A DNA stretch of 64,000 bases from a virus. This document shows, in pieces, positions 5,805 through 63,694 of the stretch. The notes under the pieces are model-generated. The model was not told the origin of the DNA. It searched no databases and saw nothing but the letters and a program-made list of their open reading frames with translations. The translations under genes were made by a program, and so were the position numbers. The stretch's first letter is position 1. Every line of letters starts with the position of its first letter. The DNA lies in the IMG/VR virus record IMGVR_UViG_3300031857_000010, positions 62,001-126,000 of that record; one strand, 5' to 3'.

Positions 5805-6668
5805 CTATATGTGTTGACGTAAAACTTTGCTATTCTTGTTACATTTTAATACTCTGATAGTCATATCTTTAATTTGACGAACTCTTTCTCTTGTTAAATC
5901 CAAATAGTCACCTATTTCTTCTAGAGTCATAGTTTGGTAACCCAAAATTCCATAATACATACAAACTATAACTCTTTGACGGGGTTGGAGACTTTTCAAA
6001 ATTTTCTCTAAATCATCGCAAAAAGATTCATTAATTAATTTTTCATCCGGTGATGTTATTTCTTTGTTGATCAAACAATCACTTAAAACCATATCCTCAC
6101 TGTCAGAAACAGGACTATCCAAAGAAGCAACCTTTCCAGTGTTACTTAGCATAGTATCTTTAATTTTAATTTCTGTTTCTTCAAGGACTTGAGCAATTTC
6201 CTGTTCAGTGGGTTCTCTTTCAAGTTTTATTTCTAATTGCTGTGCAGTTCTATTAATTTTATTTATTGCCAAATTTTGATTATTTGGTAGACGAATTAAT
6301 TTGCCGTTATCAGAAATTGATTGCATGATTGATTGACGAATCCACCAAACTGCGTAAGAAATAAATTTAAATCCTCTAGAATTGTCAAATCTCTCGGCTG
6401 CTTTAATTAAACCCAAATTTCCATCAGAAATCAAATCTTCCAAGCTCATACCTTGGTTTTGAAATTGCTTAGCTACAGAAACAACAAAACGGAGATTAGC
6501 TTTCACAATTTCATTTAGTGCAGCTTTATCTCCGTTTGCTATTCTCTCTAATAAATTATATTCTTCTTCTTCTGTTAGTAGTTTGATTTTTGATACTTCT
6601 GAGAAATAATAATCTAATGATTGACTCTCTCTCTTTGTGATTGATTTAGTGATTTTTAGTTGTCTCAT
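5805..6668 (-). CDS. RNA polymerase sigma-70 factor, RpoD-like (Bacteroidota type)
   Basis: A 287-residue sigma factor with regions 1.2, 2, 3 and 4 but no long region 1.1. The N-terminus MRQLKITKSITKRESQSLDYY closely follows Bacteroidota RpoD. Region 2 reads KANLRFVVSVAKQFQNQG, then GFKFISYAVWWIRQSI (2.3/2.4). Region 3 has EREPTEQEIAQVLE. Region 4.2 ends with the helix-turn-helix TLEEIGDYLDLTRERVRQIK. It should direct host core polymerase to phage promoters. The last residues (VLKCNKNSKVLRQHI) depart from the usual C-terminus. A good TTG-N20-TATATTTG promoter sits upstream, so it may be expressed early from the host primary sigma. Confidence 0.95.
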   Translation of the reverse strand: MRQLKITKSITKRESQSLDYYFSEVSKIKLLTEEEEYNLLERIANGDKAALNEIVKANLRFVVSVAKQFQNQGMSLEDLISDGNLGLIKAAERFDNSRGFKFISYAVWWIRQSIMQSISDNGKLIRLPNNQNLAINKINRTAQQLEIKLEREPTEQEIAQVLEETEIKIKDTMLSNTGKVASLDSPVSDSEDMVLSDCLINKEITSPDEKLINESFCDDLEKILKSLQPRQRVIVCMYYGILGYQTMTLEEIGDYLDLTRERVRQIKDMTIRVLKCNKNSKVLRQHI

Positions 6669-6773: not shown

Positions 6774-7631
6774 TTAAAAACGAAGTTCTGAACCCAAATT
6801 TCTTTTCATGAAACCTCTCAATTTTCTGATTGCTTTATCTTTAATTTGCCTGATCCTTTCCGAAGAAAATTCAAGTTTGTGTGCAATTTCAGTGTTTGTT
6901 AATTCCAGATTTTTATCATTTAATCCATAACTGAGTTTTATTACCTCCTTTTCCATTTCTGAAAGACAAGAAAAAGCTAATTCAATCTGTTTTTTTCTAT
7001 AATTACCTGCAACGTAATCTTCAATATTCAAAACATCTTGATTGAGTACATCTAATAAAGTGGTTTCGCAATCAGGTGTTAATTTTGTATCTAAAGAAGA
7101 AGTCTTGTTTCCGACGTATAAAATATCGAATGTTTTATGATCAATATTTAATTCTTTACAAACTTCATCTATAGAGAAATAACCATTATTCTCTAATTTC
7201 TTTTTATTTATTAAATCTTTTAAATGATTTTGTTGTTGGATTTTATTTTGAGGTAATCTAACTAATTGTCCATGTTTAGCAATTGCTTCTAGTATTGATT
7301 GTCTTACCCAAGCTACAGCATAAGAAATAAATTTGAAACCTCTAGTTTCATCAAATCTTTGAGCTGCTTTTATTAAACCAACATTTCCTTCTGCTATCAG
7401 TTCCTCTAATGACAAACCACGATTCTGATATTTTTTTGCACATGAAATAACAAATCTTAAATTGGCTTTTACCAATTCATTTTCTGCGTTTTTATCTCCG
7501 GTTCTAATTTTTTGAGCTAATTCAACTTCCTTTTGTTGATCAATCATCGGAATTAAAGAAACATCATTGAAATATTTATCAATTATAAAAGTTCTATCCG
7601 TGATGGTTGCTGTAATCTTTAGGCTTCTCAT
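6774..7631 (-). CDS. Second sigma-70 family factor, RpoD-like paralogue
   Basis: A 285-residue sigma factor, clearly paralogous to the product of 5805-6668 but diverged. The N-terminus is MRSLKITATITDRTFIIDKYF; region 2 reads KANLRFVISCAKKYQNRGLS, then GFKFISYAVAWVRQSILEAI; the HTH of region 4.2 is NTEIAHKLEFSSERIRQIK. Relative to the first factor the promoter-contact helix has AVAWVRQS in place of AVWWIRQS, and the region-4 recognition helix differs (FSSERIRQIK versus LTRERVRQIK). It may therefore read a different promoter class, for example the CTATTTAY elements before virion genes. A 105-base gap separates it from the first sigma gene. Confidence 0.94.
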   Translation of the reverse strand: MRSLKITATITDRTFIIDKYFNDVSLIPMIDQQKEVELAQKIRTGDKNAENELVKANLRFVISCAKKYQNRGLSLEELIAEGNVGLIKAAQRFDETRGFKFISYAVAWVRQSILEAIAKHGQLVRLPQNKIQQQNHLKDLINKKKLENNGYFSIDEVCKELNIDHKTFDILYVGNKTSSLDTKLTPDCETTLLDVLNQDVLNIEDYVAGNYRKKQIELAFSCLSEMEKEVIKLSYGLNDKNLELTNTEIAHKLEFSSERIRQIKDKAIRKLRGFMKRNLGSELRF

Positions 7632-12100: not shown

Positions 12101-12262
12101 TTGTTGTTTTTGCTGAATAAAATTAATATCAGAGGATTGTGTCGGAGGAGTACTGGATAATATATCCTTACTTTGTTCCAAAGACTTCATCGGGTCTTTT
12201 CGACCTCTTAAAGCCCTCATAACACCATAAAATACACTTTTTGGGTCTAATTCGTTTGCCAT
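9119..12262 (-). CDS. Portal protein (T4 gp20-like) precursor interrupted by an intein
   Basis: A 1047-residue precursor. The exteins together (residues 1-325 and 757-1047, 616 aa) form a T4 gp20-type portal: IAAALDIISDEVC near 95-107, the long stem region, and the junction region KIETLPGA / SNLDAIADIEYLQNKLF, which corresponds to the TLPG segment of gp20. The portal forms the dodecameric head vertex through which DNA is packaged. The intein sits exactly at this conserved segment. The C-terminus has a Gly/Ala/Glu low-complexity stretch of about 70 residues that T4 gp20 lacks, then a helical end. It lies just downstream of the terminase gene (59-base gap) on the same strand. Confidence 0.92.
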   Translation of the reverse strand: MANELDPKSVFYGVMRALRGRKDPMKSLEQSKDILSSTPPTQSSDINFIQQKQQQYLDIQSVKIAQDLYSRTLFYDSDRITAYNDFRSMDLSPEIAAALDIISDEVCTRSERGHVITIYSDNLRIKKILQELFYNTLNAEFNLSFWTRELCKYGDCFLKLEIDQDQGIYDCMILPVGEIHKEVGYDGNPKSTRYKWDINNMFFEEWQVAHFCLLFDASRLPYGRSLLDPARKLWKQLQLAEDAMLVYRLSRAPERRIFYIEVGNTDPNDVYQLIEQVKKNVKKSPVVDPNSGQVNLKYNPITYEEDYFLPIRGDKSSKIETLPGACLALDTKIELLDGRSLELKDIISEFENGKQLWSYSINPETGEIVPGKITWAGLTRKNTDVVKITLDNGETITTTPDHKFPTKFNGIKQAKDLQIGESMWSFNKKFQKIKGAGKKRKRNTYEMVFDHNSNEWIYTHRLVANYFKNLNEHEIFSYLNEYFDSEKNTIHHKDFNRYNNSPENLCFMNPKDHFYYHQDKIDEMYKFFGNEITESWKKERKKGLVKYFENLSPEELDKKIKTAIDNSLKSRKKSASTFKSNPKKDEIIKRTSNKAKITKNKLENKIRYSQNSKKLWENKDYVESVIGPQRIKYDERMISILSDLIKNGFNKTQDILPIINDSNNEFYKIFNELNSNNKQFLKSKGITHNNLDKLVKHFGYKNWREFKNSAYCYNHKIVSVEFLSDKQDTGTITIDGPEQYHNFHNFALTVGIFTQNSNLDAIADIEYLQNKLFAAIKVPKTYLNYAESMPGGSTLSQVDLRFARTINRIQEQIVLELRRIANVHLYFLGFEDDLDNFTLTLTNPSTQLELLKLETWKARMEVFKELFSSDATAPVSYSWAMEYILGFSKSEIKQILRQKKVEKKMFSEIERANDEYMDTGIFKDLDEKFRKPDFDAGDGGSTPEGGSESSGGEESSGGFGGSSVLGGLGGGAEATPEATPELGGAEAAPEAGGTEPAAGGAEAEAGAPLTENKLIVENRKFDIQTRKMMKSIDSYLNKIKDENSDSE
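9995..11287 (-). mobile_element. Intein with HNH endonuclease in the portal gene
   Basis: A 431-residue intein (precursor residues 326-756). Block A is CLALDTKIELLDG with the nucleophile Cys326; block B is ITTTPDHKF with the TxxH motif (His402). The C-terminal blocks end HNFHNFALTVGIFTQN followed by Ser+1. The residue before the terminal Asn is Gln rather than the usual His. Between the splicing blocks lies an HNH endonuclease (TIHHKDFNRYNNSPENL near 490-505), not the more common LAGLIDADG type. Splicing would join ...TLPGA to SNLDA..., giving a normal portal sequence. Confidence 0.92.
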
Positions 12263-12321
12263 AATAATAAATATCTCTTAAATTAATTAAATTGATTAGC
12301 AAATCATATAATTATAGATTT

Positions 12322-15063
12322 TTATCCAGACATCAACCAGCTCAAATCATTATCATCGTCTGATTTTCTGTTTTGACTCGTCAAAATAATACCCTCTGTT
12401 GGTTTGGAATCAAAATCTATTTTATCTCCGATTTCAGTTTTTTGGTTCGAAATCGCACCAATCATAGCTTTGTATAAATCTCTACTGGCAAAATGTTTGA
12501 AATATTCAGTATCTCTTACAAAAAGTAATACTCCCAAAGCAAAAATTAAATCATCATTAAATCCATCAGCATGTTCTGGTTTATTGCCATTATATATAAA
12601 AGTATCAAATTCCTCCAGTAATCTCACTGAATTTATCTTAATCTTTCCTTCTCTCATATAAGAATTTAAACTGCTTATAATTAAAGGTCTTGTTACCTGA
12701 GTTGTTTGAATACCGGGAATATCATCATTCTCTTTGATTTTAACTTTTGCTACCGGATTTATAATGTCTTTTATTGATTTTGAATGATAAATTCTGTCTT
12801 CTGGATATTTAAGACTATTTTTTATATTCAAAGTTGTTGCTAAACCAAAACTATTACATTCGATTACCAAATAAGCATTATTATAATCACGTCCAACTTT
12901 ATCAATTAAGCTTCCAAATACATCTGGTGGAATTTTACCTTGATACTCTGCTACTTGTTCACATGTATCAGCGTCAAAAACTTGTAATGTTGAAAAGTCT
13001 TTTGAATCGCCTCTTGCAACGTCTCCGCCCACAATGTAGTTTTTTCCATATTCTGGTTTTTTCCAAACCCAAAAATTTGTTTTTGTATTGATAAATCTTT
13101 CTTCAGACCTTGTATAATCATAATAAAATTCTGGTTTTTCGTTTATAATAGATCTTTTGTATTTTTCAATAATAGCACTTTCAATAACCAATTGTCTTGA
13201 ACCCTCAAATGACAAATCTAACTCTTGTGCGATTTTTACCCTATCATACTGTAATCGTTCACATTCTTTTTCATACCATGGACTTGTCCAATATTTTTGA
13301 CCATAATCATTAATTTTTTCCTCCATTTCTTTACAATAAACAGGATGTTGAGTCCAATGTATTTCAAATGGTATAAAATCATTTTCACTCTTTTTTGTTC
13401 CAACCCAAGTTCTATGATATAGGTTCCCCGTGCCTTGTGGAGTGCTTATCATGATACATTTACCTTGTGTTGCAGATAAAGCAAGACCAGCAGCCATCCA
13501 AATATCTTCTGCATTCTCTATAAACGCAGTCTCATCCAATATCAACATTGTTAATGATTCTCCACGACCTGCATTTTTGGAACTTGCAACTGCTTTTACC
13601 CATGATATTTTACCTTCTGGATTTTTCAATGAAAAGAATTTTTCATTGTCTTTTTCAGATTGTGTATCTGGATCAAATAAAAATTTAGGAAGAAATTGAA
13701 AATATTGTTTAACGGTACTTAAAAAACGAATTGCTCCAGCACCATCGTTTGCAACAATTAATATTCTTTGGTCCATTTTGAACAATAACATCCAAACTAC
13801 AAAGCCTGCTGTGATTACAGAAAGTCCTGTATTGTGAACTAAAAGACCATCAATAAAGTAGTTTTCATTTTTAGTTACTGAAATGTCATAACAATTAATT
13901 TTTCCAACTCTCTCTATTTTTCTAACTTTTGATTGATCTTTTACATCATGTTTTCTTGAATTTGAAATTGAAACGTGTTCTGAATTTATTTTTTTATAAA
14001 TTCCTATATCATTAATAAATTTTGATATGCTTTTGGAGTGAGTTATTCTTAATTTAAAAAAAGGATTTTTTTGAAGTTTCATATTTTTAACTTCATAAAT
14101 ATTACATTTAATATCAAATTTTTTTAATAAAAATTTTACTTGTTCTAAAAATTCCTTGCTTGGGGAAGCTATTCCTATTTCTAATCTTTTATTTGTTTTT
14201 TTCTTTAAAATACTTATCCAACCATCTCCTGCAAACATTCTATTTAATAAAATAGATAATGAATTCTTATTCCAATAAAAAACTTCTTGAGGTAATATTT
14301 TATTTTCTGTTTTCTTTCCAGCTATTTTTTTATTTTCACACCATTCCATGATTGGACTTTTGGTATTAACCCCATGCTTTTGATGAGGTAAATAATCGAA
14401 TCCTTTTAGTTTTGGTATTTTTCTTAAACTTAATTCTGGAAAAATATAATTTATTGATTCTTCAAATTCTTTTAGATAATCAATATTGTTGTTTGTAAAT
14501 TTTACTTGTTTGATTGTACTTCCATCCGTTATGAGATAAGCTAACAATTTTATTTCATTTATATCAGCTTCAATTTCCCCAAATTGAAATTTTTGATCTA
14601 AAATTTCATCGTCAATTTCTAAATCTTTTGCTGATACCCATTTGTTTTTATTTTTTATGAAAAAAGGGTGATTTTCACCAACAACAATATTTCTTGAATC
14701 TTTTAATTTTATTTTTACAGATTCTATTTCTCCGCATTCCCAATGATCATAAACCGTATCTAATTCATATTTATTTTTATTTAAATTGAATGAATATACT
14801 ATATCTCCTTTGTTTATTTCACTTATTTTTTTTGGCCCATCTGGTGTACTTATAAAAGTATCTTCTGGTAAACATTGTCTTGATTTTAGAATAATATTAT
14901 TCTGATATTTTATGTAATTTTTCAATACATTCTCTTGATACTCAAAACAAGATAATTTATCTACTTTGCTTTTTCTAATATCATAAACATATCCATAGTT
15001 ATTTAGAAAATAAACTGGATCTTTTGCACATTTAATATATTCTTGTATCTCTTGAGGTGTCAT
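12322..15063 (-). CDS. Terminase large subunit (T4 gp17-like) precursor interrupted by an intein
   Basis: A 913-residue precursor whose exteins (1-63 and 412-913) form a 565-aa TerL. The spliced product restores the Walker A region ILKSRQ-TGLSVITAG, matching the SRQxGKT loop of gp17. Walker B is LTMLILDE (504-511), followed by an ATPase coupling-type motif ISTPQGTG. The RNase H-like nuclease domain has VGGDVARGDSKDFST (Asp681), LVIECNSFG (Glu734) and a late HADGFNDDLIFAL. It packages DNA into the prohead through the portal encoded just downstream. The intein lies within the ATP-binding loop, so the motor cannot work until splicing happens. Confidence 0.95.
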   Translation of the reverse strand: MTPQEIQEYIKCAKDPVYFLNNYGYVYDIRKSKVDKLSCFEYQENVLKNYIKYQNNIILKSRQCLPEDTFISTPDGPKKISEINKGDIVYSFNLNKNKYELDTVYDHWECGEIESVKIKLKDSRNIVVGENHPFFIKNKNKWVSAKDLEIDDEILDQKFQFGEIEADINEIKLLAYLITDGSTIKQVKFTNNNIDYLKEFEESINYIFPELSLRKIPKLKGFDYLPHQKHGVNTKSPIMEWCENKKIAGKKTENKILPQEVFYWNKNSLSILLNRMFAGDGWISILKKKTNKRLEIGIASPSKEFLEQVKFLLKKFDIKCNIYEVKNMKLQKNPFFKLRITHSKSISKFINDIGIYKKINSEHVSISNSRKHDVKDQSKVRKIERVGKINCYDISVTKNENYFIDGLLVHNTGLSVITAGFVVWMLLFKMDQRILIVANDGAGAIRFLSTVKQYFQFLPKFLFDPDTQSEKDNEKFFSLKNPEGKISWVKAVASSKNAGRGESLTMLILDETAFIENAEDIWMAAGLALSATQGKCIMISTPQGTGNLYHRTWVGTKKSENDFIPFEIHWTQHPVYCKEMEEKINDYGQKYWTSPWYEKECERLQYDRVKIAQELDLSFEGSRQLVIESAIIEKYKRSIINEKPEFYYDYTRSEERFINTKTNFWVWKKPEYGKNYIVGGDVARGDSKDFSTLQVFDADTCEQVAEYQGKIPPDVFGSLIDKVGRDYNNAYLVIECNSFGLATTLNIKNSLKYPEDRIYHSKSIKDIINPVAKVKIKENDDIPGIQTTQVTRPLIISSLNSYMREGKIKINSVRLLEEFDTFIYNGNKPEHADGFNDDLIFALGVLLFVRDTEYFKHFASRDLYKAMIGAISNQKTEIGDKIDFDSKPTEGIILTSQNRKSDDDNDLSWLMSG
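13831..14874 (-). mobile_element. Intein with LAGLIDADG endonuclease in the terminase Walker A motif
   Basis: A 348-residue intein (precursor residues 64-411). Block A is CLPEDTFISTPDGPKKI (Cys64); block B is VVGENHPFF; the end is NYFIDGLLVHN with canonical His-Asn followed by Thr+1. Two dodecapeptide endonuclease motifs are visible, LLAYLITDGS (173-182) and LLNRMFAGDGW (272-282), each with the catalytic acid, so the DOD/LAGLIDADG nuclease looks intact. Its insertion between SRQ and TGLS places it in the most conserved loop of the host protein. Confidence 0.95.
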
Positions 15064-44889: not shown

Positions 44890-46230
44890 ATGGCTATAGA
44901 AGATTTGGATGACTCTAAATTATTATTTCCTTCTGATGGGAATAACAATAAAAAAAATAGATCAAACACTCCGCTGTTAGATAATTTTGGAAAAGATATT
45001 ACAAAATTAGCTGCTTCTGGAAAAATTGAACCTGCAGTAGGAAGAGAAAATGAAGTAGATAGAATTATTCAAATTTTAAGTAGAAAGAAAAAGAATAATC
45101 CTGTATTAGTTGGTCAACCCGGTGTAGGTAAAACTGCGATTGTAGAATCTCTTGCAAATAAAATAGTTGATAAAAAGGTTAGTGTTGTTCTTCATGATAA
45201 AAGAATAGTAAGCTTAGATATTTCACTCATAGTTGCCGGAACAAAATACAGAGGTCAGTTTGAGGAAAGGATGAAAGCAATTATGGATGAAATTGAAAAT
45301 AATCCTAACATTATTTTATTTATTGATGAATTACACACCATAATTGGTGCTGGTAATTCTGCTGGATCTTTAGATGTTTCTAATATTATAAAACCTGCTC
45401 TTGCAAGAGGTACAATGCAAATTATAGGTGCTACAACAATTGAAGAATATAAAAAATCGATTGAAAAAGATGGGGCTATGGAAAGAAGGTTTCAAAAAGT
45501 AATGATTGAGGAACCCTCTATTGAAGAAACTAAAACTATTCTTAATAACATTAAAGGAATTTATGAGGATTTTCATAATGTTACTTTTGATGCCGAAGCA
45601 ATAACATCTGCAGTAGATTATTCTGTTAGATATATTACCAATAGATTTTTACCAGATAAAGCGATCGATATTATTGATGAAGCAGGTGCTAGATTACATT
45701 TGGATAATCTCCACTTACCAGTAGAATTAGAAGTTCTTGAAAATAAATTGAATGATCTTAAGAACGAAAAAAACGAAGTAATAAAATCTCAAAAATATGA
45801 GCAAGCTGCTAAGATCAGAGACAAGGAGAGAGATTTAATAAAAGAAATAGAGATTTTTAAATACAACTGGCAAAATCAACAAAAAACCAAAAGGGTTCCT
45901 GTCACAGAACATGATATTGCGAGAGTCGTTTCAAAAATGATTGGAATTCCGGTAACTCAAATCACAGAAAGTGAAGGTGTTCGTCTAATGAAAATGGGTG
46001 AAGAGTTGAAAAAAAGGGTTATTGGACAGGATGAAGCAATTGAAAAAATATCCGAATCTATTCAGCGATCAAGATCTGGATTGAGTAATCCAAAAAAACC
46101 TATTGCAAGTTTTTTGTTTCTTGGTTCAACTGGTATTGGTAAGTGTTTAGGAAAAAATACAGAAATAACAATAATGGCTGATGATATTTTAATAAATAAA
46201 ATATTAGAAAACAGAAAAAACAAAAATTAA
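44890..46230 (+). CDS. ClpC-like AAA+ unfoldase, N-terminal part, ending in a split-intein N-fragment
   Basis: A 446-residue protein. Residues ~35-330 are the first AAA+ domain of a Hsp100 unfoldase: GQPGVGKTAIVESLA (75-89), ILFIDELHTIIGAG, GATTIEEYKK, RRFQKVMIEEPS. A ClpC-type UVR middle segment follows (SQKYEQAAKIRDKE), then the start of the second AAA+ domain. Its Walker A motif FLGSTGIGK stops at Lys418. The next residue, Cys419, begins a 28-residue intein N-fragment (CLGKNTEITIMADD...) ending at a stop codon. The C-terminal half is encoded at 47384. There is no ClpN domain, only ~30 residues before AAA1. Confidence 0.92.
   Translation: MAIEDLDDSKLLFPSDGNNNKKNRSNTPLLDNFGKDITKLAASGKIEPAVGRENEVDRIIQILSRKKKNNPVLVGQPGVGKTAIVESLANKIVDKKVSVVLHDKRIVSLDISLIVAGTKYRGQFEERMKAIMDEIENNPNIILFIDELHTIIGAGNSAGSLDVSNIIKPALARGTMQIIGATTIEEYKKSIEKDGAMERRFQKVMIEEPSIEETKTILNNIKGIYEDFHNVTFDAEAITSAVDYSVRYITNRFLPDKAIDIIDEAGARLHLDNLHLPVELEVLENKLNDLKNEKNEVIKSQKYEQAAKIRDKERDLIKEIEIFKYNWQNQQKTKRVPVTEHDIARVVSKMIGIPVTQITESEGVRLMKMGEELKKRVIGQDEAIEKISESIQRSRSGLSNPKKPIASFLFLGSTGIGKCLGKNTEITIMADDILINKILENRKNKN
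46144..46227 (+). mobile_element. Split intein N-fragment (28 aa)
   Basis: It starts at Cys419 directly after the Walker A lysine (GSTGIGK|CLGKNTEITIM), as expected for intein block A, and ends at TAA 46228. At 28 residues it is much shorter than the ~100-aa N-fragments of common split inteins, and similar to the atypical class with very short N-fragments. Confidence 0.88.
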
Positions 46231-46234
46231 CACT

Positions 46235-46283
46235 ATTTAGGTTTAACAGGGATAGGAAAATTAGTATCCCTGTATTCCTAAAT
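46235..46283 (+). promoter_or_regulatory. Long stem-loop over the endonuclease gene start
   Basis: An inner perfect 9-bp stem (ACAGGGATA / TATCCCTGT, 10-base loop) and an outer 7-bp stem (ATTTAGG / CCTAAAT), separated by a small internal loop. The outer right arm runs into the ATG at 46282, so the folded RNA would hide the endonuclease start codon. This fits the translational control known for phage homing endonuclease genes, or a remnant of the mobile unit's boundary. Confidence 0.65.
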
Positions 46284-47379
46284 GATAATTAAAAGTAGAA
46301 AAAAAGTATTGTTCAATATCGAATCAATAGAAGAGTTTGAAAAATATTTAAGTAAAGAGATTAAGAATTTCAAAAATTTAAATAATTTAGAAAAAGGACA
46401 AAGAGAAAATCTTATAGTTGCTCTTTCAGAAAAAAATGAAATAGGTATAAAAAAATTCAGAAATATATTTGTAAAAAATTATATTAATTGTAAAACACTT
46501 TTTAATAAAAAATATTGGTTAGAAAGGGGTTATTCTCACGAAGAGGCAGTTAGTGAAATTTTTAAAATTCAAAAAATTAACAACATAAAAGCGGTTGAAG
46601 TAATGCAAGATTTAAAAAAATATGATCTTAATAATTACAAAAAAAAAAGAAATATCTATGTTGAGTATTGGATAGAAAAAGGATTCACTATTGAAGAAGC
46701 AAAAATAAAATTAAAAGAAAGACAATCAACTTTTTCACTTGAAAAACTTAAATTAAAATATGGCGAGAAAGAAGGTTTAATCAAATTCAATCAACGTAAT
46801 GATAAGTGGCAAAATAGTCTTTATAGTAAAATGACTTTTGAACAAAAAAATGAATTTGAAAAAAGCAAGTGTATAACCAAAGATAAAATGGTTTCTAAGT
46901 ACGGTGAAAAATTGGCTACAGAAAAATGGGAAAATTATATTAAGACTCACTCAAATATGTGGAATGCGTCTGGTATATCAAAAAAATACATTGATGAAAT
47001 TCTATCTATTATTGGACCTGATGAAATTGAAACTGAAACCATATTTTACGGTTCAGATATAAAAAGTGAATTTTACCTATATGACAAAGAAACGATGTCT
47101 TTGTATTGGTATGATCTCACTTTTTTTGATAGAAAAAAAATAATAGAATTTGACGGTATTCACGTACATCCGGATCCAAATGCTCTTGAAAATGAACGTT
47201 TAAATTGGAAACAAGCGTACACAAATAAAAGTTATGAAGAAGCTTTGTCAAAAGATATAGCTAAAGAACAATTTGCAATAAAAAATGGTTTTGAAGTACT
47301 TAGAATTAGATTACCAAAACATTCAACAAATACAATAAAAGAGTCTATTGATAAATGCATAAAATTTATAAAAAAATAA
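46282..47379 (+). CDS. Free-standing EDxHD (Vsr-like) homing endonuclease between split intein halves
   Basis: A 365-residue protein. The C-terminal ~110 residues form a Vsr/EDxHD-type nuclease core: a SEFYLYD...YWYDLTFFDRKKIIEFDGIHVHPDP stretch (split as YWYDLTFF and IIEFDGIHVHPDP; Glu289, Asp291, His294, His296, Asp298), then LSKDIAKEQFAIKNGFEVLRI. This order matches the family of free-standing homing endonucleases found within fractured, split-intein phage genes. The N-terminal ~220 residues hold two EEAxxEI/KLKER-type helical repeats (YWLERGYSHEEAVSE, YWIEKGFTIEEAKIK) that probably recognise DNA. It starts 51 bases after the N-part stop, and its own stop is 4 bases before the C-part ORF. 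Confidence 0.85.
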   Translation: MIIKSRKKVLFNIESIEEFEKYLSKEIKNFKNLNNLEKGQRENLIVALSEKNEIGIKKFRNIFVKNYINCKTLFNKKYWLERGYSHEEAVSEIFKIQKINNIKAVEVMQDLKKYDLNNYKKKRNIYVEYWIEKGFTIEEAKIKLKERQSTFSLEKLKLKYGEKEGLIKFNQRNDKWQNSLYSKMTFEQKNEFEKSKCITKDKMVSKYGEKLATEKWENYIKTHSNMWNASGISKKYIDEILSIIGPDEIETETIFYGSDIKSEFYLYDKETMSLYWYDLTFFDRKKIIEFDGIHVHPDPNALENERLNWKQAYTNKSYEEALSKDIAKEQFAIKNGFEVLRIRLPKHSTNTIKESIDKCIKFIKK

Positions 47380-47383
47380 TAAA

Positions 47384-47800
47384 ATGATTGAATTAAAAGT
47401 AAAAATAGAAGAGATATTCGAAGCAGTTTCTCAATTAGAAGCTCAAGAATTTATTCCAGAAAAAGAGATTTTTCAAAAATCTAAAATAATGGTCAAAAAC
47501 GAATTTGGTAAATGGATAAATGTTTTAGGTATGATCACAAAAAAAGATCAAGTTCGTGAAATTAAATTTTCTGATGGAAGCTTCTGTGTAGTTGCAGATA
47601 ATCACAAAATACGTAAAGAAAAGAATGAATGTTGTTTAGTTTCTAATTTGTTGATCGGAGATTTTGTTGAAAAGGCAGATGAAAGTAAAATTTCTGTAAT
47701 TAGCAACAATTTAACAGGTGAAATTGAAACTGTTTTTGATATGCACGTTGATTCTGAAACTCATTTATATCAAACAGAAAATGGAATTGTACATCACAAC
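47384..47800 (+). mobile_element. Split intein C-fragment (139 aa)
   Basis: The first 139 residues of the downstream ORF form an intein lacking block A. It has a block-B-like CVVADNHKIR (His74), DQVREIKFSDGSF, and C-terminal blocks TVFDMHVDSETHLY and ENGIVHHN, with canonical His-Asn followed by Thr+1. It complements the 28-aa N-fragment. Confidence 0.9.
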
Positions 47801-48643
47801 ACAGAATTATCTAAAGCACTATCTGAATATTTATTTAATGATGAAGATTCGCTAATTAGAATTGACATGAGTGAATATATGGAACCACATAGTGTATCAA
47901 AATTAATAGGTGCTCCTCCGGGATATGTTGGTCATGGTGATGGCGGTCAATTGACTGAAAAAGTTAGAAATAAACCTTATAGTATTGTTTTATTTGATGA
48001 AATAGAAAAGGGTCATAAAGATGTGATAAATATTTTATTACAGCTTTTGGATGAAGGAAAATTGACTGATGGAGACGGTGTTGAAATTAATTTTAAAAAT
48101 ACTGTGGTTATTATGACATCAAATATTGGAACGCAAGAAATTACTGAAAACAAACCAGTAGGATTCAATTCAGATCTTTTGAAAAATAATCTTGAAAACC
48201 AAAGGATAATTGAAAAGGCATTAAAAAAACATTTCAGACCGGAGTTGCTTAATAGAATTGATGATGTTGTTATATTCCAAAAATTGACCCAAGATAATGT
48301 ATTAGATATCGTAAAAATTCATTTAAGAAACTTTGAAAAAAATGTTATTTCTCAAGGAATAAATGTTGAATTTACAGATAAAATGATTGATTTTATTGGT
48401 GAAGAAGGTTATTCTGACGAATATGGAGCAAGGCCTATTCTTAGAGTTATAACAAAATTTGTTGAAACTCCTTTGTCTAAAGAATTACTTCTCAAAAAAA
48501 TTATAAAAGGTGATGATATTATCATTGATTTTGACAAAGAAAAAGGAACTTTAATTTCTAAAAGAGAAGAAAAAAAAGAAACCAAAGTTAAAAATGTTGT
48601 CAAAAAAAAGGTTACGAGAAAAAAGAAAGAGGATAATATTTAA
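47384..48643 (+). CDS. ClpC-like AAA+ unfoldase, C-terminal part, preceded by split-intein C-fragment
   Basis: A 419-residue protein. Residues 1-139 are the intein C-fragment. The extein (280 aa) starts TELSKALSEYLF, exactly what should follow the Walker A lysine of the second AAA+ domain. Then come RIDMSEYMEPHSVSKLIGAPPGYVGH, Walker B SIVLFDEIEKGH, sensor 1 TSNIGT, RPELLNRID and the C-terminal small domain. KPVGFN near 256-261 lies where ClpC and ClpA have their ClpP-binding loop (VGF/IGL). Trans-splicing would give a 698-aa unfoldase. A basic tail (KKKVTRKKKEDNI) ends the protein. Confidence 0.92.
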   Translation: MIELKVKIEEIFEAVSQLEAQEFIPEKEIFQKSKIMVKNEFGKWINVLGMITKKDQVREIKFSDGSFCVVADNHKIRKEKNECCLVSNLLIGDFVEKADESKISVISNNLTGEIETVFDMHVDSETHLYQTENGIVHHNTELSKALSEYLFNDEDSLIRIDMSEYMEPHSVSKLIGAPPGYVGHGDGGQLTEKVRNKPYSIVLFDEIEKGHKDVINILLQLLDEGKLTDGDGVEINFKNTVVIMTSNIGTQEITENKPVGFNSDLLKNNLENQRIIEKALKKHFRPELLNRIDDVVIFQKLTQDNVLDIVKIHLRNFEKNVISQGINVEFTDKMIDFIGEEGYSDEYGARPILRVITKFVETPLSKELLLKKIIKGDDIIIDFDKEKGTLISKREEKKETKVKNVVKKKVTRKKKEDNI

Positions 48644-54068: not shown

Positions 54069-56318
54069 TTAAATATTAAAACTTTTTAATAATTTGTTGT
54101 TATAATTATCGAATTCATTTTTTAATTCGTTAATTAATTTCTGTATTTTATTCATACTCTCATCTAATCTTGCTTGTGGTGAATTTCCCAATTCTGTTCC
54201 CGAAGGTAATTGCTTGAGTAATGAATATACATTTCTAAGATAGGAAGGATTCTGCAATAAGAATCCTTTGGATGATAATAGTTTTTTAAATTCTTCAGAT
54301 TCTTCTTCTCCTGCTTTGAAATATTTTTCTAGCTCTCTGCCCTCTGCACCAGAACCCAAAGTTACTTTTTTAAGCAATTGTATGAATTCTCTTATTGGTA
54401 TATTTTTCTTACCTAATTTATTTGTTACTTCAGAAGGTAAGCCTTGTCCAAGATAGTTATTATCTTGTAATGATAATATAAAATCATCTAGATATAATTC
54501 TGGTTTTGTCATCCAATCATAAGTTCCTTTCGGGCTTGATGGTTTTAAACCAGCTTTAATTTCTTTATCTCTTTGTCTTTTTTCCTTAATAGACTCTTTT
54601 TCAACAAATTTATAAATACCATAACCAAACATTCTTAATAAAATAGATGTGGCTAAATCTTTATTGAAAGATATGAAAGATTTTATTTTATTTTGACCAT
54701 ACTTTTCAGAATCAGGTTCATTTATTATTTTTTCAATGATGTCTTTTGCAACATTTGATAAATTACCTTTTATTTTATCTACTATACTGGCTGCTAATAA
54801 TTCTGCTTCCTTTTTTTCAATATTTGTCGGCATTTCAACGGCTTCCTCTTCTGATGGTAAATATTTTTTAACAGAAGTCATAAAGTTGCCCCTGAATGTA
54901 TCAGAAACATTTTTATAAAAAAGTGGGTTGTTGGGTTGGTATATGGCTTTTCTACCTCTGGTCTCTTCTCCTTTTTCTTTAGGAGATCTAACATCATATT
55001 CAAATCCATTAGCTTTTTGCAAATCTTCAAGAAAAGATTGTTTATCATCATATGTATAAACAAAATAAGCTTTACCAGTTCTCTTGTCTTGCTTTTCTTC
55101 TGATTTAGTAAAATTACCTATTGCTTTATCTGTAGGTACTTTTGAAATAAAAGAGAATGGAAATGAAAGTCCAGATGCTAAATCAGCAGCCTTTGAATTA
55201 TCAAATAATAAATCTGTAAATCCTTTTAATTGATCTATTGCATAATTCCTTACAACAGTATAAGTCCAAGCACCAATGTTAGCATAATTAAAATCATATT
55301 TTCCTTCTGAAATTTCATCTGATACCTCATCAATACCTATTAATTTTCTTAATGCTTTTTGTACTCCTTCGTATGCATATTCTTGAACATTCTCAAATTT
55401 TAATAATGGTTGTAAAACCTTTTCTACAACTAGAATCATATATACCTCTAGAATAGATTTACATCTATCTGCTATTTTGCCTTTTAATCTACCATCACCT
55501 AAATTTAACAAAAACGTTTCTTGTTCTTCAGCTAATCCTCTACTGATACCACTATCCATTTGAATATTAGATGGTATTTCCAAAGTGGTATTCATATTTT
55601 TTTCAGCAGCATAATACATTCTTGCTAAAAATTCTAATTCTCCGGCACCCTGTGGTGTTATAGTTCCCTTTAAGTTACTTGAGCTAATTGCATTTGCCAT
55701 TTTAGCTCTATTAAATGGAATCCAAGTTCTACTTATTTCTTTCTTAATTCCATCTTTTTCTTCTGTACTCAAAGTATAAGTTACTGGAATCTTTTTTTGA
55801 CCTGAAAATTGTTTACTAGTTGCTAATGATAAATCTTTCAATGCACCAGAATATTTCAGACGCATTTGACCAATTTTTTCATCCGATCCCGGTTGCCCTG
55901 TGTCTATTTGCCCTTTTTCTCTTTCATAAGGCATAACATTTTTTTCAAAATTTAATATTTTTTTAGTTTCATCACTCAAACCCTCATTTTCTATTAAATC
56001 CAAAACTTCTAATTGAAATTCTTCTAGTTCTCCAAAACACAAAGCTGCTTTCATTCCAAAAGGAGGATCAACAACACTTTTTTGAGTGACAGTGCTGGTT
56101 GATAAGTCTTTTTGTAATTTTTCTTTTCCAGATATTTGACTAGTAGGTTGGAATCCAAAAAGGTCAAATTTATTTTCTTCTTCTTTAATTAATTCGGTAA
56201 CAAATGCTTGAATAAATAATTTTTTAGCTTTTTCATTGGATGGATTTCTTAAAAATACATCCTGAGCCTTTAATCTTATTTCATTCAAAGATAAATTACT
56301 ATTGTTTAATAGTGCCAT
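54069..56318 (-). CDS. Large protein with sigma-70 region 2-like segment
   Basis: A 749-residue protein. Residues ~300-375 (EYAYEGVQKALRKLIG, then FNYANIGAWTYTVVRNYAIDQLKG) resemble sigma region 2 ('QEGxxGLxxA...F..W.Y.iaRn.aID.LR'). I see no clear region 4. The N-terminal 280 residues and the C-terminal half are unknown, and the last 40 residues form a coiled coil (MNKIQKLINELKNEFDNY). It is the first gene of a two-gene leftward unit with its own CTATTTAT element. Size and composition would also fit a phage structural or virion-packaged protein. Confidence 0.5.
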   Translation of the reverse strand: MALLNNSNLSLNEIRLKAQDVFLRNPSNEKAKKLFIQAFVTELIKEEENKFDLFGFQPTSQISGKEKLQKDLSTSTVTQKSVVDPPFGMKAALCFGELEEFQLEVLDLIENEGLSDETKKILNFEKNVMPYEREKGQIDTGQPGSDEKIGQMRLKYSGALKDLSLATSKQFSGQKKIPVTYTLSTEEKDGIKKEISRTWIPFNRAKMANAISSSNLKGTITPQGAGELEFLARMYYAAEKNMNTTLEIPSNIQMDSGISRGLAEEQETFLLNLGDGRLKGKIADRCKSILEVYMILVVEKVLQPLLKFENVQEYAYEGVQKALRKLIGIDEVSDEISEGKYDFNYANIGAWTYTVVRNYAIDQLKGFTDLLFDNSKAADLASGLSFPFSFISKVPTDKAIGNFTKSEEKQDKRTGKAYFVYTYDDKQSFLEDLQKANGFEYDVRSPKEKGEETRGRKAIYQPNNPLFYKNVSDTFRGNFMTSVKKYLPSEEEAVEMPTNIEKKEAELLAASIVDKIKGNLSNVAKDIIEKIINEPDSEKYGQNKIKSFISFNKDLATSILLRMFGYGIYKFVEKESIKEKRQRDKEIKAGLKPSSPKGTYDWMTKPELYLDDFILSLQDNNYLGQGLPSEVTNKLGKKNIPIREFIQLLKKVTLGSGAEGRELEKYFKAGEEESEEFKKLLSSKGFLLQNPSYLRNVYSLLKQLPSGTELGNSPQARLDESMNKIQKLINELKNEFDNYNNKLLKSFNI

Positions 56319-58458: not shown

Positions 58459-58929
58459 ATGTCGTTAAACAAAGTTATGCTCATAGGAAATGTGGGCAAG
58501 GATCCGGAAGTAACCACACTTGATAAGGGTGGTAAAGTAGCAAAGTTCACTTTAGCAACAAGTGAAAAATACACTGATAAGTCAGGTAACAAGACAGAAA
58601 GAACTGATTGGCACAATATTGTGGCTTGGGGTCCTCTTGCTGATCTGGTTGAAAAATATGTAACAAAAGGAAAACAATTATATCTTGAAGGTCAAATCAG
58701 AAATCGTTCTTGGGAGCAAGACGGTGTCAAGAAGTTTGCAACCGACATAAATATTACTCAACTTGTATTCTTGTCTAACGGTGGAAATGGCGGTAACAAG
58801 GAACAATCTTCTTCTGCTTCTTCTGAAGCACCAAAATCATCAACTGCAAAAAAATCTACTAGTTCAAAATCTCCAGAACCAGTAGTAGCACCAGCAATGG
58901 ATGATACTGATGAAGATCTTCCTTTCTAA
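58459..58929 (+). CDS. ssb: Single-stranded DNA-binding protein, bacterial type
   Basis: A 156-residue SSB. The OB fold covers residues 1-~108 (LNKVMLIGNVGKDPEV, TDWHNIVAWGPLADLVEKYVTKGKQLYLEGQ split as TDWHNIVAWG and KGKQLYLEGQ), followed by a flexible Gly/Ser/Ala/Lys linker. The C-terminus DDTDEDLPF is the acidic interaction tip of bacterial SSBs. It resembles bacterial SSB rather than T4 gp32, so it may recruit host repair and replication proteins through the tip. It has its own promoter and terminator, so it is probably a monocistronic, highly expressed gene. Confidence 0.96.
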   Translation: MSLNKVMLIGNVGKDPEVTTLDKGGKVAKFTLATSEKYTDKSGNKTERTDWHNIVAWGPLADLVEKYVTKGKQLYLEGQIRNRSWEQDGVKKFATDINITQLVFLSNGGNGGNKEQSSSASSEAPKSSTAKKSTSSKSPEPVVAPAMDDTDEDLPF

Positions 58930-58995: not shown

Positions 58996-59724
58996 ATGAC
59001 TAGAGATTCCTTTGAAATATTATTAAATGATTTATATGATATTTATAATTCATCAAAAAAATCAGATATACCAAGCATATTAGATAAATATAATGGACAA
59101 GAATATGATGCCATTTATCAGCTTCTTTTTAAATATAATTATCCTAGAAATCCGATTTATAACCCTGATGTAACTTCTCCAAAATTCATAAAACTACTAA
59201 TAGATACATATTCTGGTGGTAGAAGAATTCTGAAAGATGAAGATTTTTTAATTAAGAATTATAATCAGAATTTAAAATTCGAAGGTCTAGTTGAGGCAAA
59301 AGTTAGTGATGTAAAAGATCAAATAACCAAGGATTTCGATGTTAAATTAGATGATAAATTAAATGCTACTATTGAGAAGTATAATTTCAAGATCAATGAA
59401 ATACAAAATGAATTTGACAAAAAAATAGAACAAATTGGAAAATTTTTAGAGGACTATAAAAATAAAATTCCAGAGCTTTTAAAAAGCTCATCTAAAGATG
59501 ATAACGATAATATTGAAATTAAATTGAACATTCTTTGGACTGAGCACGAAATAAACATTCCATCCAATCTGAAATACTGTACTGCTGGAGACAGAATTAT
59601 TACTACTGATAACAATGGAAATGTTATCGGATTAGAGATAAAAGATATCTATTGGGATTGTGTTTCAATTCCAAATAAAATAATTAAAGAAATTACAATA
59701 GATAAATTAACAAGTAATTTTTAA
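58996..59724 (+). CDS. Hypothetical protein with coiled coil, about 242 aa
   Basis: An upstream in-frame ATG at 58972 lies inside the ssb terminator, so the ATG at 58996 (MTRDSFEILLNDLYDI) is the better start. The middle (~100-160) is a coiled coil (LDDKLNATIEKYNFKINEIQ...), and the C-terminal part is a small beta-rich domain (ILWTEHEINIPSNLKYCTAG). It is not recognised. Its stop overlaps that of the convergent 80-aa gene by four bases. Confidence 0.6.
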   Translation: MTRDSFEILLNDLYDIYNSSKKSDIPSILDKYNGQEYDAIYQLLFKYNYPRNPIYNPDVTSPKFIKLLIDTYSGGRRILKDEDFLIKNYNQNLKFEGLVEAKVSDVKDQITKDFDVKLDDKLNATIEKYNFKINEIQNEFDKKIEQIGKFLEDYKNKIPELLKSSSKDDNDNIEIKLNILWTEHEINIPSNLKYCTAGDRIITTDNNGNVIGLEIKDIYWDCVSIPNKIIKEITIDKLTSNF

Positions 59725-59963
59725 ATTTCATCATCTTTAATATTCTTATTCAATCTCAAGATTGAATTATAGAAATCTAGATCTATTAAATTAATTATTA
59801 TTATTTTTCCATTGTGATTTTCATCAACATGTTCAACTTCAAATTTTGAAGCTGGATAAATCAATCTGATATCATCCCAGATTTTATCAAACCCTAATCT
59901 TCCAATTTCTTCAGAAGTTAGTTCTATGATAACTTTATCCATTTTTTTCTCTAGCACTTTCAT
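59721..59963 (-). CDS. Hypothetical protein, 80 aa
   Basis: A small alpha/beta protein (VIIELTSEEIGRLGFDKIWD ... GKIIIINLIDLDF), not recognised. It is encoded one base after the PrsW-like gene and so probably cotranscribed with it. Confidence 0.55.
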   Translation of the reverse strand: MKVLEKKMDKVIIELTSEEIGRLGFDKIWDDIRLIYPASKFEVEHVDENHNGKIIIINLIDLDFYNSILRLNKNIKDDEI

Positions 59964-59964
59964 T

Positions 59965-60777
59965 TTAATTCATTTTACAGAATCTTTTTACTCTACTTTC
60001 CTTTATTAGGTTGTTGATCATAAAGTGTCCTATGATCAAGCCAAATGATATAATGAAAACTGTAAAAAGAGTCTTGTAGTTATTGTCTGGTAACATTAAA
60101 TTTAAATCATATACTCCATGATATATGGAAGCGAACATTATTCCAATAAAAATGTATATTTTATTAGAAAAATTAAAATCATGTTCGAATAGTTTTGTTG
60201 ATGTTTTAACCTTGTTGCTCATTTCTATTGATTTAGAAATGAAATAACCAATAATCACACCACATATCATATGCATTATCACTGCAGTCAATGATCTACT
60301 TAAAGATAATTTTAGCATAGATAAATTTAATTGCGTGTTTGATATAAAAGGATCAAACGAATTATTTTGATATAAAGCAATTAAATAACTTATATTCTCC
60401 GTCAAAGCAAATCCCAGTGAAGTCATAAGACTATAATAAAGCGTTGCAATTGGTAAATCATGTTTCCTACTAATCCTTTCACTTGAAACCCATTGAAATA
60501 TTGAATACTTACTGAATTCTTCCAATAATCCTATTTGTATGACCGTAAAAAATACGTAATCAAAAAGGAAGTTTACATTTAATTGTTTCCCCCAATTTGG
60601 AAAAATGAAATAAACCAAAAAAATCAAAAAAGGGGACATTAGTCCAGAAATCAAGTATCTTCTGCCCCTGTCCAAACTTACGAAGGACTTTGGTATCATA
60701 TAATATACGAGGAAAACGTATAAAATAATAGGGATTAAGGCAAAAATTACAATAAAAAAGTTATTTGTAATATTCAT
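59965..60777 (-). CDS. PrsW-family intramembrane protease
   Basis: A 270-residue polytopic membrane protein with about seven hydrophobic segments and all PrsW motifs: GLLEEFSKY (Glu86, Glu87, Lys90: the EExxK motif), GFALTENISY (Phe123, Glu127, Asn128), His169 in IMHMICG, and His220 in SIYHGVYD. In Bacillus PrsW makes the first cut in an anti-sigma factor and frees an ECF sigma; the substrate here is unknown. No anti-sigma gene lies next to it. Its presence beside sigma genes elsewhere in the same phage invites a regulatory or anti-host role. No promoter element is clear upstream apart from an AATATTTATAG stretch. Confidence 0.85.
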   Translation of the reverse strand: MNITNNFFIVIFALIPIILYVFLVYYMIPKSFVSLDRGRRYLISGLMSPFLIFLVYFIFPNWGKQLNVNFLFDYVFFTVIQIGLLEEFSKYSIFQWVSSERISRKHDLPIATLYYSLMTSLGFALTENISYLIALYQNNSFDPFISNTQLNLSMLKLSLSRSLTAVIMHMICGVIIGYFISKSIEMSNKVKTSTKLFEHDFNFSNKIYIFIGIMFASIYHGVYDLNLMLPDNNYKTLFTVFIISFGLIIGHFMINNLIKESRVKRFCKMN

Positions 60778-60865: not shown

Positions 60866-61777
60866 ATGAAAAGCAAGTTATTCGGTGATATCAAGGTTGT
60901 AAATGAAAAAACAATTATGACCGGCAATCAAATGTTCGATAAGTGGTTTTCAAAAGACGGAGGTATTGTTCCCGGTTCTATCATTTTTGTTACTGGTACT
61001 TCTGGTGCTGGCAAGACCACCCTTATGATCAATTTGATGAATTGGCTTAAGAATAATAAGAGTTCATTCTATTCAAGGGAAATGAGCATAAGCTCTTTGA
61101 AGCAACAAGTAAAGGATTATAATTTTAAAAATAATAATGCTTATTTTGTTGATGATGAAGATTGCCCCCACATAAACGATTATTTCAAAGAACTTGACGT
61201 TATTAAGCCAGAAGTTGTCATCGTGGATTCTCTACAAGCTATAGCAAGTGCTGATTTTCCTGAAATGAGCGAAGAAAAAGCCTCGGTTATAGTTCGTCAA
61301 AAACTTGAGCAATGGTGTAAAGCAAATGGATCGACCTTATTTTTGATTGGACATAATACAAAGGATAATGAGTTTGCTGGGAAAAACACTAACATGCAAA
61401 TGGTCGATGCTCATATGGTTTTAGAGTATGATAAAAAAACAGAAACTCGTAGAATTTTTTGGGGTAAGAAAAATAGAAAAGGTCCTATGGGAGAACTTTT
61501 CTATAAAATTGTAAATGGATCTATAGAATTCATGGAAAATAAAGAAGACACATCAAATTCAAAAAAAGAAGTCAAATTTACTGAAGAATTTTTTCAGTTC
61601 ATATTAGGTTATCTTGATAAAGTAAAAACATCTGATAAAAATGATGAAATAATCAAGGATGAAATTAATTCTATTTCAGATAAATTATATGATAGGTTTA
61701 ACAGTGATGGATATACCTATATGGTCAATCTTTTGCCAGCCATCTACCATATATTAAATAAATATAAAAAGCTTTAA
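60866..61777 (+). CDS. RadA/Sms-like recombination ATPase
   Basis: A 303-residue RecA-fold ATPase. GGIVPGSIIFVTGTSGAGKTT (Walker A, 44-51; split as GGIVPGS and TGTSGAGKTT) matches RadA's GG(L/I)VPGS motif. Walker B is VVIVDSLQAI, and the KNRxG motif is present (KKNRKGPMGELF), with MVDAHMVLEYD before it. RadA's zinc finger and Lon-like domain are missing; instead there is a unique C-terminal ~80 residues. RadA acts in branch migration of recombination intermediates, and this may be a phage version or a replicative helper. It is preceded by its own regulatory region. Confidence 0.85.
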   Translation: MKSKLFGDIKVVNEKTIMTGNQMFDKWFSKDGGIVPGSIIFVTGTSGAGKTTLMINLMNWLKNNKSSFYSREMSISSLKQQVKDYNFKNNNAYFVDDEDCPHINDYFKELDVIKPEVVIVDSLQAIASADFPEMSEEKASVIVRQKLEQWCKANGSTLFLIGHNTKDNEFAGKNTNMQMVDAHMVLEYDKKTETRRIFWGKKNRKGPMGELFYKIVNGSIEFMENKEDTSNSKKEVKFTEEFFQFILGYLDKVKTSDKNDEIIKDEINSISDKLYDRFNSDGYTYMVNLLPAIYHILNKYKKL

Positions 61778-63134: not shown

Positions 63135-63167
63135 TTGAAAAACAAAACCCCCAATTATTTGGGGGTT
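63135..63167 (-). terminator. Intrinsic terminator overlapping the IF-3 stop codon
   Basis: On the minus strand: AACCCCC, 8-base loop containing the stop TAA, GGGGGTT, then TTGTTTTT. The IF-3 stop codon itself lies in the loop, so the terminator is inside the end of the gene. Confidence 0.8.
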
Positions 63168-63694
63168 ATAATTACAAACATATTTTTACCTTCTAATTTA
63201 GGTAAGCTTTCTGGTTTACCTATATCGCTTAACGATTCTATGAATTTAAGTAGAATAAGTTCTCCTTGTTCTTTATAAACTATTTCCCTTCCTTTAAATT
63301 GTATATAAGCTTTAACTTTATCACCGTGTTCTAGAAATTTTCTTGTATTTTTTAATTTAAAATCAACATCATGTTGTTGAATGTGGGCACCAAGCTTTAC
63401 TTCTTTTAAAGTATGTTTGTTAGAGTTTTTCTTTTCTTTATCTTTTTTCTTTTTTTCATAAAGAAATTTAGAATAGTCACATACTTTACAAATTACTGGA
63501 TTAGAAGTGCTGTTGATTTCAACTAGATCAAGACCAAGTTGTTCTGATATGTTTAAAGCTTCTTGTAATGACACTATTTTACTTTCAATGTCATCACCTA
63601 TTATTCTTACTGTTTGTGAGGTAATAGCCCGGTTTATTTTAAAAAGAGGCTCTTTTGTAAATCTTTTTCTTTGAAAATTGGGATTTTGACTCAT
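63155..63694 (-). CDS. infC: Translation initiation factor IF-3
   Basis: A 179-residue full-length IF-3. The N-domain has INRAITSQTVRIIG and LQEALNISEQLGLDLVEIN, PVICKVCDYSKFLYEKKKK; the C-domain has KEVKLGAHIQQHDVDFKLKN, ARKFLEHGDKVK-type TRKFLEHGDKVKAYIQFKGRE. It binds the 30S subunit, blocks 50S joining and selects start codons. Cellular infC usually starts with the rare AUU codon for autoregulation, while this gene starts with ATG (63694), so that control appears absent. Its start overlaps the stop of the upstream truncated gene (ATGA). The product may favour phage mRNAs. Confidence 0.95.
   Translation of the reverse strand: MSQNPNFQRKRFTKEPLFKINRAITSQTVRIIGDDIESKIVSLQEALNISEQLGLDLVEINSTSNPVICKVCDYSKFLYEKKKKDKEKKNSNKHTLKEVKLGAHIQQHDVDFKLKNTRKFLEHGDKVKAYIQFKGREIVYKEQGELILLKFIESLSDIGKPESLPKLEGKNMFVIITPK

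Follow-up and report, generated by a model that had tools for sequence, protein, structure and literature searches.

PrsW gene and active site of its product

The window (the whole stretch of DNA analysed, 64,000 nucleotides) corresponds to positions 62001-126000 in a virus record of 216,699 bp (28.6% GC), which may itself be a fragment. The PrsW ORF lies exactly at positions 59965-60777 of the window, on the minus strand, and its 270-aa product matches the PrsW-protease family (PF13367) with E = 1.8e-19 and 70.5 bits against a Pfam gathering score of 23.5, therefore far beyond chance. The active-site motifs were read directly in the sequence: EExxK (L85-E86-E87-F-S-K90); FxxxEN (F123-A-L-T-E127-N128); and the two histidine motifs, H169 and HxxxD (H220-G-V-Y-D224). 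Conservation was examined in 93 homologues (16 from phages, 77 cellular): E86, E87, K90, F123, E127, N128, R161 and H169 are invariant, and the one row without H220 has a gap there. At the HxxxD aspartate, 12 of 16 phage copies have asparagine instead; most cellular PrsW proteins and the window copy (D224) have aspartate; the full EExxK/FxxxEN/His/His set is kept in 16/16 phage copies. These copies represent about a dozen phages and share 25-51% identity, so that the invariance of the catalytic residues in phage and cellular homologues (bar the one gap) argues for retained catalysis.

The B. subtilis PrsW equivalog model (NCBIfam NF033739) gave 38.8 bits against a cut-off of 225; therefore the phage protein should not be named after the Bacillus enzyme, and on this score it is not its functional equivalog. 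PHROGs contained no family for the 270-aa protein, and no solved structure matched it by sequence. The PADLOC defence profiles showed no match for four phage PrsW proteins, and a known anti-phage defence gene was rejected as an identity on this basis.

Structure and topology

PrsW proteins are defined by EExxK in helix 3, a histidine in helix 5 and HxxxD in helix 6 (PMC4602095). The AlphaFold2 model of the phage protein (built from 57 sequences; pLDDT 88.4, pTM 0.88) has seven membrane helices and places EExxK in helix 3 (residues 71-99), FxxxEN in helix 4, H169 in helix 5 (149-193) and the HxxxD motif in helix 6 (201-228). Loop charges fit an N-terminus outside and a C-terminus inside. The top three PDB neighbours are APH-1 chains of gamma-secretase (probability 0.85-0.96, TM 0.43-0.58), matches which agree with an Rce1/APH-1-related fold, though their E-values are 0.6-0.7. 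APH-1 is a remote relative of PrsW and Rce1 (PMC6588880), and such neighbours are expected for the PrsW/CAAX/APH-1 superfamily. None of the BFVD viral proteins had the PrsW fold at a useful score.

The preliminary description of this DNA, made from the letters alone, had proposed, at the same coordinates and with no strand given, a phage-encoded PrsW-like intramembrane protease of seven segments with EExxK, FxxxEN and both His motifs intact; all of this agrees with the profile, the motifs, the model and the phylogeny given below, by which membership of the PrsW family (PF13367) is well supported. The gene very likely encodes a phage-borne PrsW-family intramembrane protease, predicted to be active.

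Phage relatives and age of the gene

The record encodes a phage terminase and portal protein, and the same PrsW gene is present in two further IMG/VR contigs; a misread bacterial contig was rejected on these grounds. Among named phage records, only LR756502 (642 kb) and LR745206 (635 kb) carry a PrsW relative; further relatives come from IMG/VR, including contigs of 160, 242 and 380 kb. In a published set of complete huge-phage genomes, the largest (634 kb and more) are placed in the Mahaphage clade and assigned Bacteroidetes hosts (PMC7162821). Scanning with the LR745206 protein added nothing.

All phage PrsW proteins form one clade (support 100/99 with 10 rows; SH-aLRT 99 with 16 rows), reached by a long branch, which makes a long history of the gene in phages probable. 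The nearest cellular group in the tree is Bacteroidota, weakly supported (81/58). Among 28 records of relatives found through the terminase, a set too fragmentary in nearly every member to gauge prevalence, PrsW is present in two: a record of the window phage itself, and G005, a distant relative (portal 50% and terminase 42% identical; GC 40% at its PrsW locus versus 28% in the window phage). Recent capture from a host is disfavoured by the phage-only clade and by the gene block common to G005. PrsW looks like an old phage gene rather than a recent pick-up, because it lies in the replication/transcription block of G005 too.

Gene neighbourhood

A gene for an 80-aa soluble alpha/beta protein (59721..59963, minus strand) lies one base downstream of PrsW on the same strand and is likely cotranscribed with it. 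It has no Pfam or PHROG match, and its AlphaFold2 model (pLDDT 83.6, from 2 sequences) is a plausible alpha/beta model only; in G005 its homologue (L021:13417-13632) is some 2.6 kb away from PrsW. The divergent neighbour of PrsW (60866..61777, plus strand) encodes a RecA/KaiC/DnaB-like P-loop ATPase of 303 aa, whose homologue in G005 lies about 4.5 kb from PrsW. A single-stranded-DNA-binding protein (SSB), identified by sequence reading at 58459..58929 (plus strand), belongs to the conserved replication block holding PrsW and has a homologue in G005 at 67706-68428. The whole block occupies a single 22-kb stretch in G005 (PrsW, 80-aa protein, P-loop ATPase, Clp unfoldase, SSB, helicase, exonuclease and a sigma-70 gene), and homologues of all these genes are found at 64-124 kb of the window's record; thus both phages have PrsW in linkage with replication and transcription genes. 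Promoter and repeat scans at the PrsW locus gave nothing useful.

Elsewhere in the window the phage encodes a complete IF-3 with both domains (63155-63694), and intein-like insertions interrupt two proteins encoded at 9119-15063, the terminase (913 aa) and the portal (1047 aa), the portal insertion matching HNH endonucleases.

Sigma factors and Clp machinery

The preliminary description had noted several sigma-like proteins, and three Sigma70_r2 matches over the Pfam cut-off were indeed found in the record: a group-2-type, RpoS/RpoD-like sigma-70 factor of 287 aa (5805..6668, minus strand; PF04542, 71.8 bits); a second, tandem sigma-70 factor of 285 aa (6774..7631, minus strand; PF04542, 65.8 bits); and a third factor of the ECF type (record position 199979-200656). 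All three lie tens of kb from PrsW. A 749-aa protein (54069-56318) also contains a short sigma-70-like stretch (WTYTVVRNYAIDQLK), with a weak PF04542 match of 13.2 bits. Of the 16 PrsW records, 12 have a sigma region-2 match with E<=0.01 (9 over the cut-off, 3 below), a count that covers PrsW-bearing phages only and is therefore weak. In the 242-kb phage contig L018, an ECF-like sigma factor, a CheY-type receiver, an HD hydrolase and PrsW lie within 2.5 kb (L018:8248-10744), the sigma gene about 1.1 kb from PrsW.

The preliminary description had advised looking for anti-sigma-like membrane proteins in the rest of the genome, and none were recognised: neither zf-HC2 nor FecR anti-sigma domains occur in the 216.7-kb record, none of the ten PrsW records searched has zf-HC2, and the only membrane protein beside the three sigma genes is one lipoprotein-like ORF. 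A phage-encoded anti-sigma substrate was rejected accordingly; a host-encoded anti-sigma factor, or one of another type, is possible. The window's record, which may be incomplete, contains neither a site-2 protease (M50) nor a rhomboid. Among the relatives, a rhomboid in LR756502 and an M50 protein in G002 are encoded besides PrsW, and LR745206 encodes two short M50 site-2-type proteases and a GASG-motif rhomboid (L111:6265-6924, L112:5910-6551, L112:767-1327).

Besides ClpP (PF00574, 97.7 bits), the phage has a Clp-type unfoldase divided between two genes (44890-46230 and 47384-48643, plus strand), whose G005 homologue is unsplit and lies 0.4 kb from PrsW; the unfoldase is a possible downstream partner in a proteolytic cascade. 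The split falls exactly inside the second Walker A motif (GSTGIGK | T): the first half ends in a 28-residue tail starting CLGKNTEI, the second opens with about 139 residues ending VHHN before the T, and a 365-aa ORF (46282-47379) lies between the halves, as in 'fractured genes'. This arrangement resembles an atypical split intein whose N part is short.

Possible targets of the phage protease

The neighbours of PrsW vary between phage lineages. An Acb1-like gene (PF23474, over cut-off) immediately precedes PrsW on its strand in two contigs, at 10 bp in L020 (9391-10750) and at 49 bp in L218 (5364-6735), two cases that may represent one related lineage. In L016 and L020, genes for NAMPT and nucleotidyltransferase/NUDIX proteins lie 2-6 kb away from PrsW, and L015 has NadR and PnuC near PrsW, all of them genes involved in rebuilding NAD+; in L018 the HD-domain hydrolase is 20 bp upstream of PrsW. 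Acb1 is an anti-CBASS phosphodiesterase, and some CBASS receptors act via a transmembrane segment (PMC9117128); a membrane protease would therefore suit such a setting. These neighbours in relatives favour host membrane targets, perhaps defence or stress proteins. The evidence for such a target, which the preliminary description had also put forward, is indirect: the window's own PrsW neighbours are replication genes, and Acb1, NAMPT, NadM and NadR homologues are absent from its record.

The reading ranked first, to which we assign a probability of about 0.42, is that the phage PrsW would be a catalytically competent glutamic intramembrane protease, inserted during infection in the host inner membrane, where it would cut one or more membrane-anchored proteins, mainly the host's. 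The most likely targets would be membrane-anchored effectors of defence or regulators of envelope stress, and their loss would allow the phage cycle to be completed. The parts of this reading that the sequence itself supports are the family, the intact active site, the seven-helix fold, the deep phage-only clade and the old gene block.

Next in rank, and already unlikely, PrsW might instead act on membrane proteins encoded by the phage itself or on leftover signal peptides, for instance to time lysis, exclude superinfecting phages or turn over membrane proteins. Membrane segments are predicted in many ORFs of the record, a conserved membrane protein of 113-115 aa has its gene just upstream of PrsW in L022, L212, L214 and L019/L023, and the huge relatives carry the rhomboid and M50 proteases described above; however, no membrane-protein gene adjoins PrsW in the window, and none was seen to accompany it across all phages. 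Slightly less probable still is the release of a sigma factor suggested in the preliminary description, in which PrsW would make the first cut in a membrane-bound host or phage anti-sigma factor, followed by a host site-2 protease and phage or host Clp, redirecting transcription. Its model is B. subtilis RsiW, cut by PrsW at site 1, then by RasP, and finally degraded by ClpXP (PMC4598750), and it draws on the three sigma factors, ClpP and unfoldase of this phage, on the sigma matches in 12 of the 16 PrsW records, on the sigma gene close to PrsW in L018 and on the M50 proteases of two relatives. Against it stand the missing zf-HC2 and FecR domains, the lack of a site-2 protease in the record, the distance between PrsW and the sigma genes in the window phage, the equivalog score far below its cut-off and, for the 12 matches, the three that fall below the region-2 cut-off and the restriction of the count to PrsW-bearing phages; sigma release is thus possible but unsupported.

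A non-proteolytic use of the PrsW fold, as a scaffold or binding protein like APH-1 in gamma-secretase, appears quite improbable: the nearest solved folds are those of APH-1, but APH-1 carries QExxR (PMC6588880), against the complete active-site set of every phage copy.

Host membrane proteins are the first-ranked targets, followed by phage membrane proteins and by anti-sigma factors. A wider and speculative proposal is that huge phages of Bacteroidota-type hosts might run an intramembrane proteolysis toolkit (PrsW, in some of them site-2 or rhomboid proteases, and ClpP with the Clp unfoldase) against host membrane defence and stress proteins, as a form of viral counter-defence.

The conserved and apparently catalytic phage branch of PrsW points to cleavage of the infected cell's membrane proteins by some huge phages. 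With defence effectors as targets, phages would have a new means of disarming the host; with anti-sigma factors, a new means of taking over transcription. PrsW is known for the release of a stress sigma factor in Bacillus, and our literature search found no paper on PrsW in phages, in line with the preliminary description, which knew of no such role.

Comparison with known systems

Bacillus subtilis PrsW, the site-1 protease of RsiW, resembles the phage protein in family (PF13367), EExxK, the histidine of TM5, HxxxD and similar size; the phage copy differs in belonging to a phage-only clade and in being without a recognisable anti-sigma factor or site-2 protease encoded alongside. The PrsW domains of Bacteroidota (e.g. 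L034, L035, L041) share the domain and the catalytic residues with the phage copies, whereas the sampled cellular proteins have long extra regions (406-718 aa in all) and the phage copies consist of the domain only (241-286 aa).

Type II CAAX proteases/CPBP (Rce1, PF02517) have in common with phage PrsW the superfamily and a membrane-helix Glu-Glu motif, which is EExxK in phage PrsW and EExxxR in CPBP/Rce1. The preliminary description had considered that a non-protease CAAX/PrsW-like family might be the better match; this motif, together with the PF13367 match and the lack of any PF02517 match for the phage in the profile search, led us to reject a CAAX/CPBP or non-protease branch. APH-1 of gamma-secretase, the best fold neighbour in the PDB, is set apart by its QExxR from the intact catalytic residues of phage PrsW. 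Among viruses, a PrsW-like protease domain has been reported in RNA viruses of an aquatic virome (PMC7508674), where it is linked to RdRP proteins; those viruses are not DNA phages.
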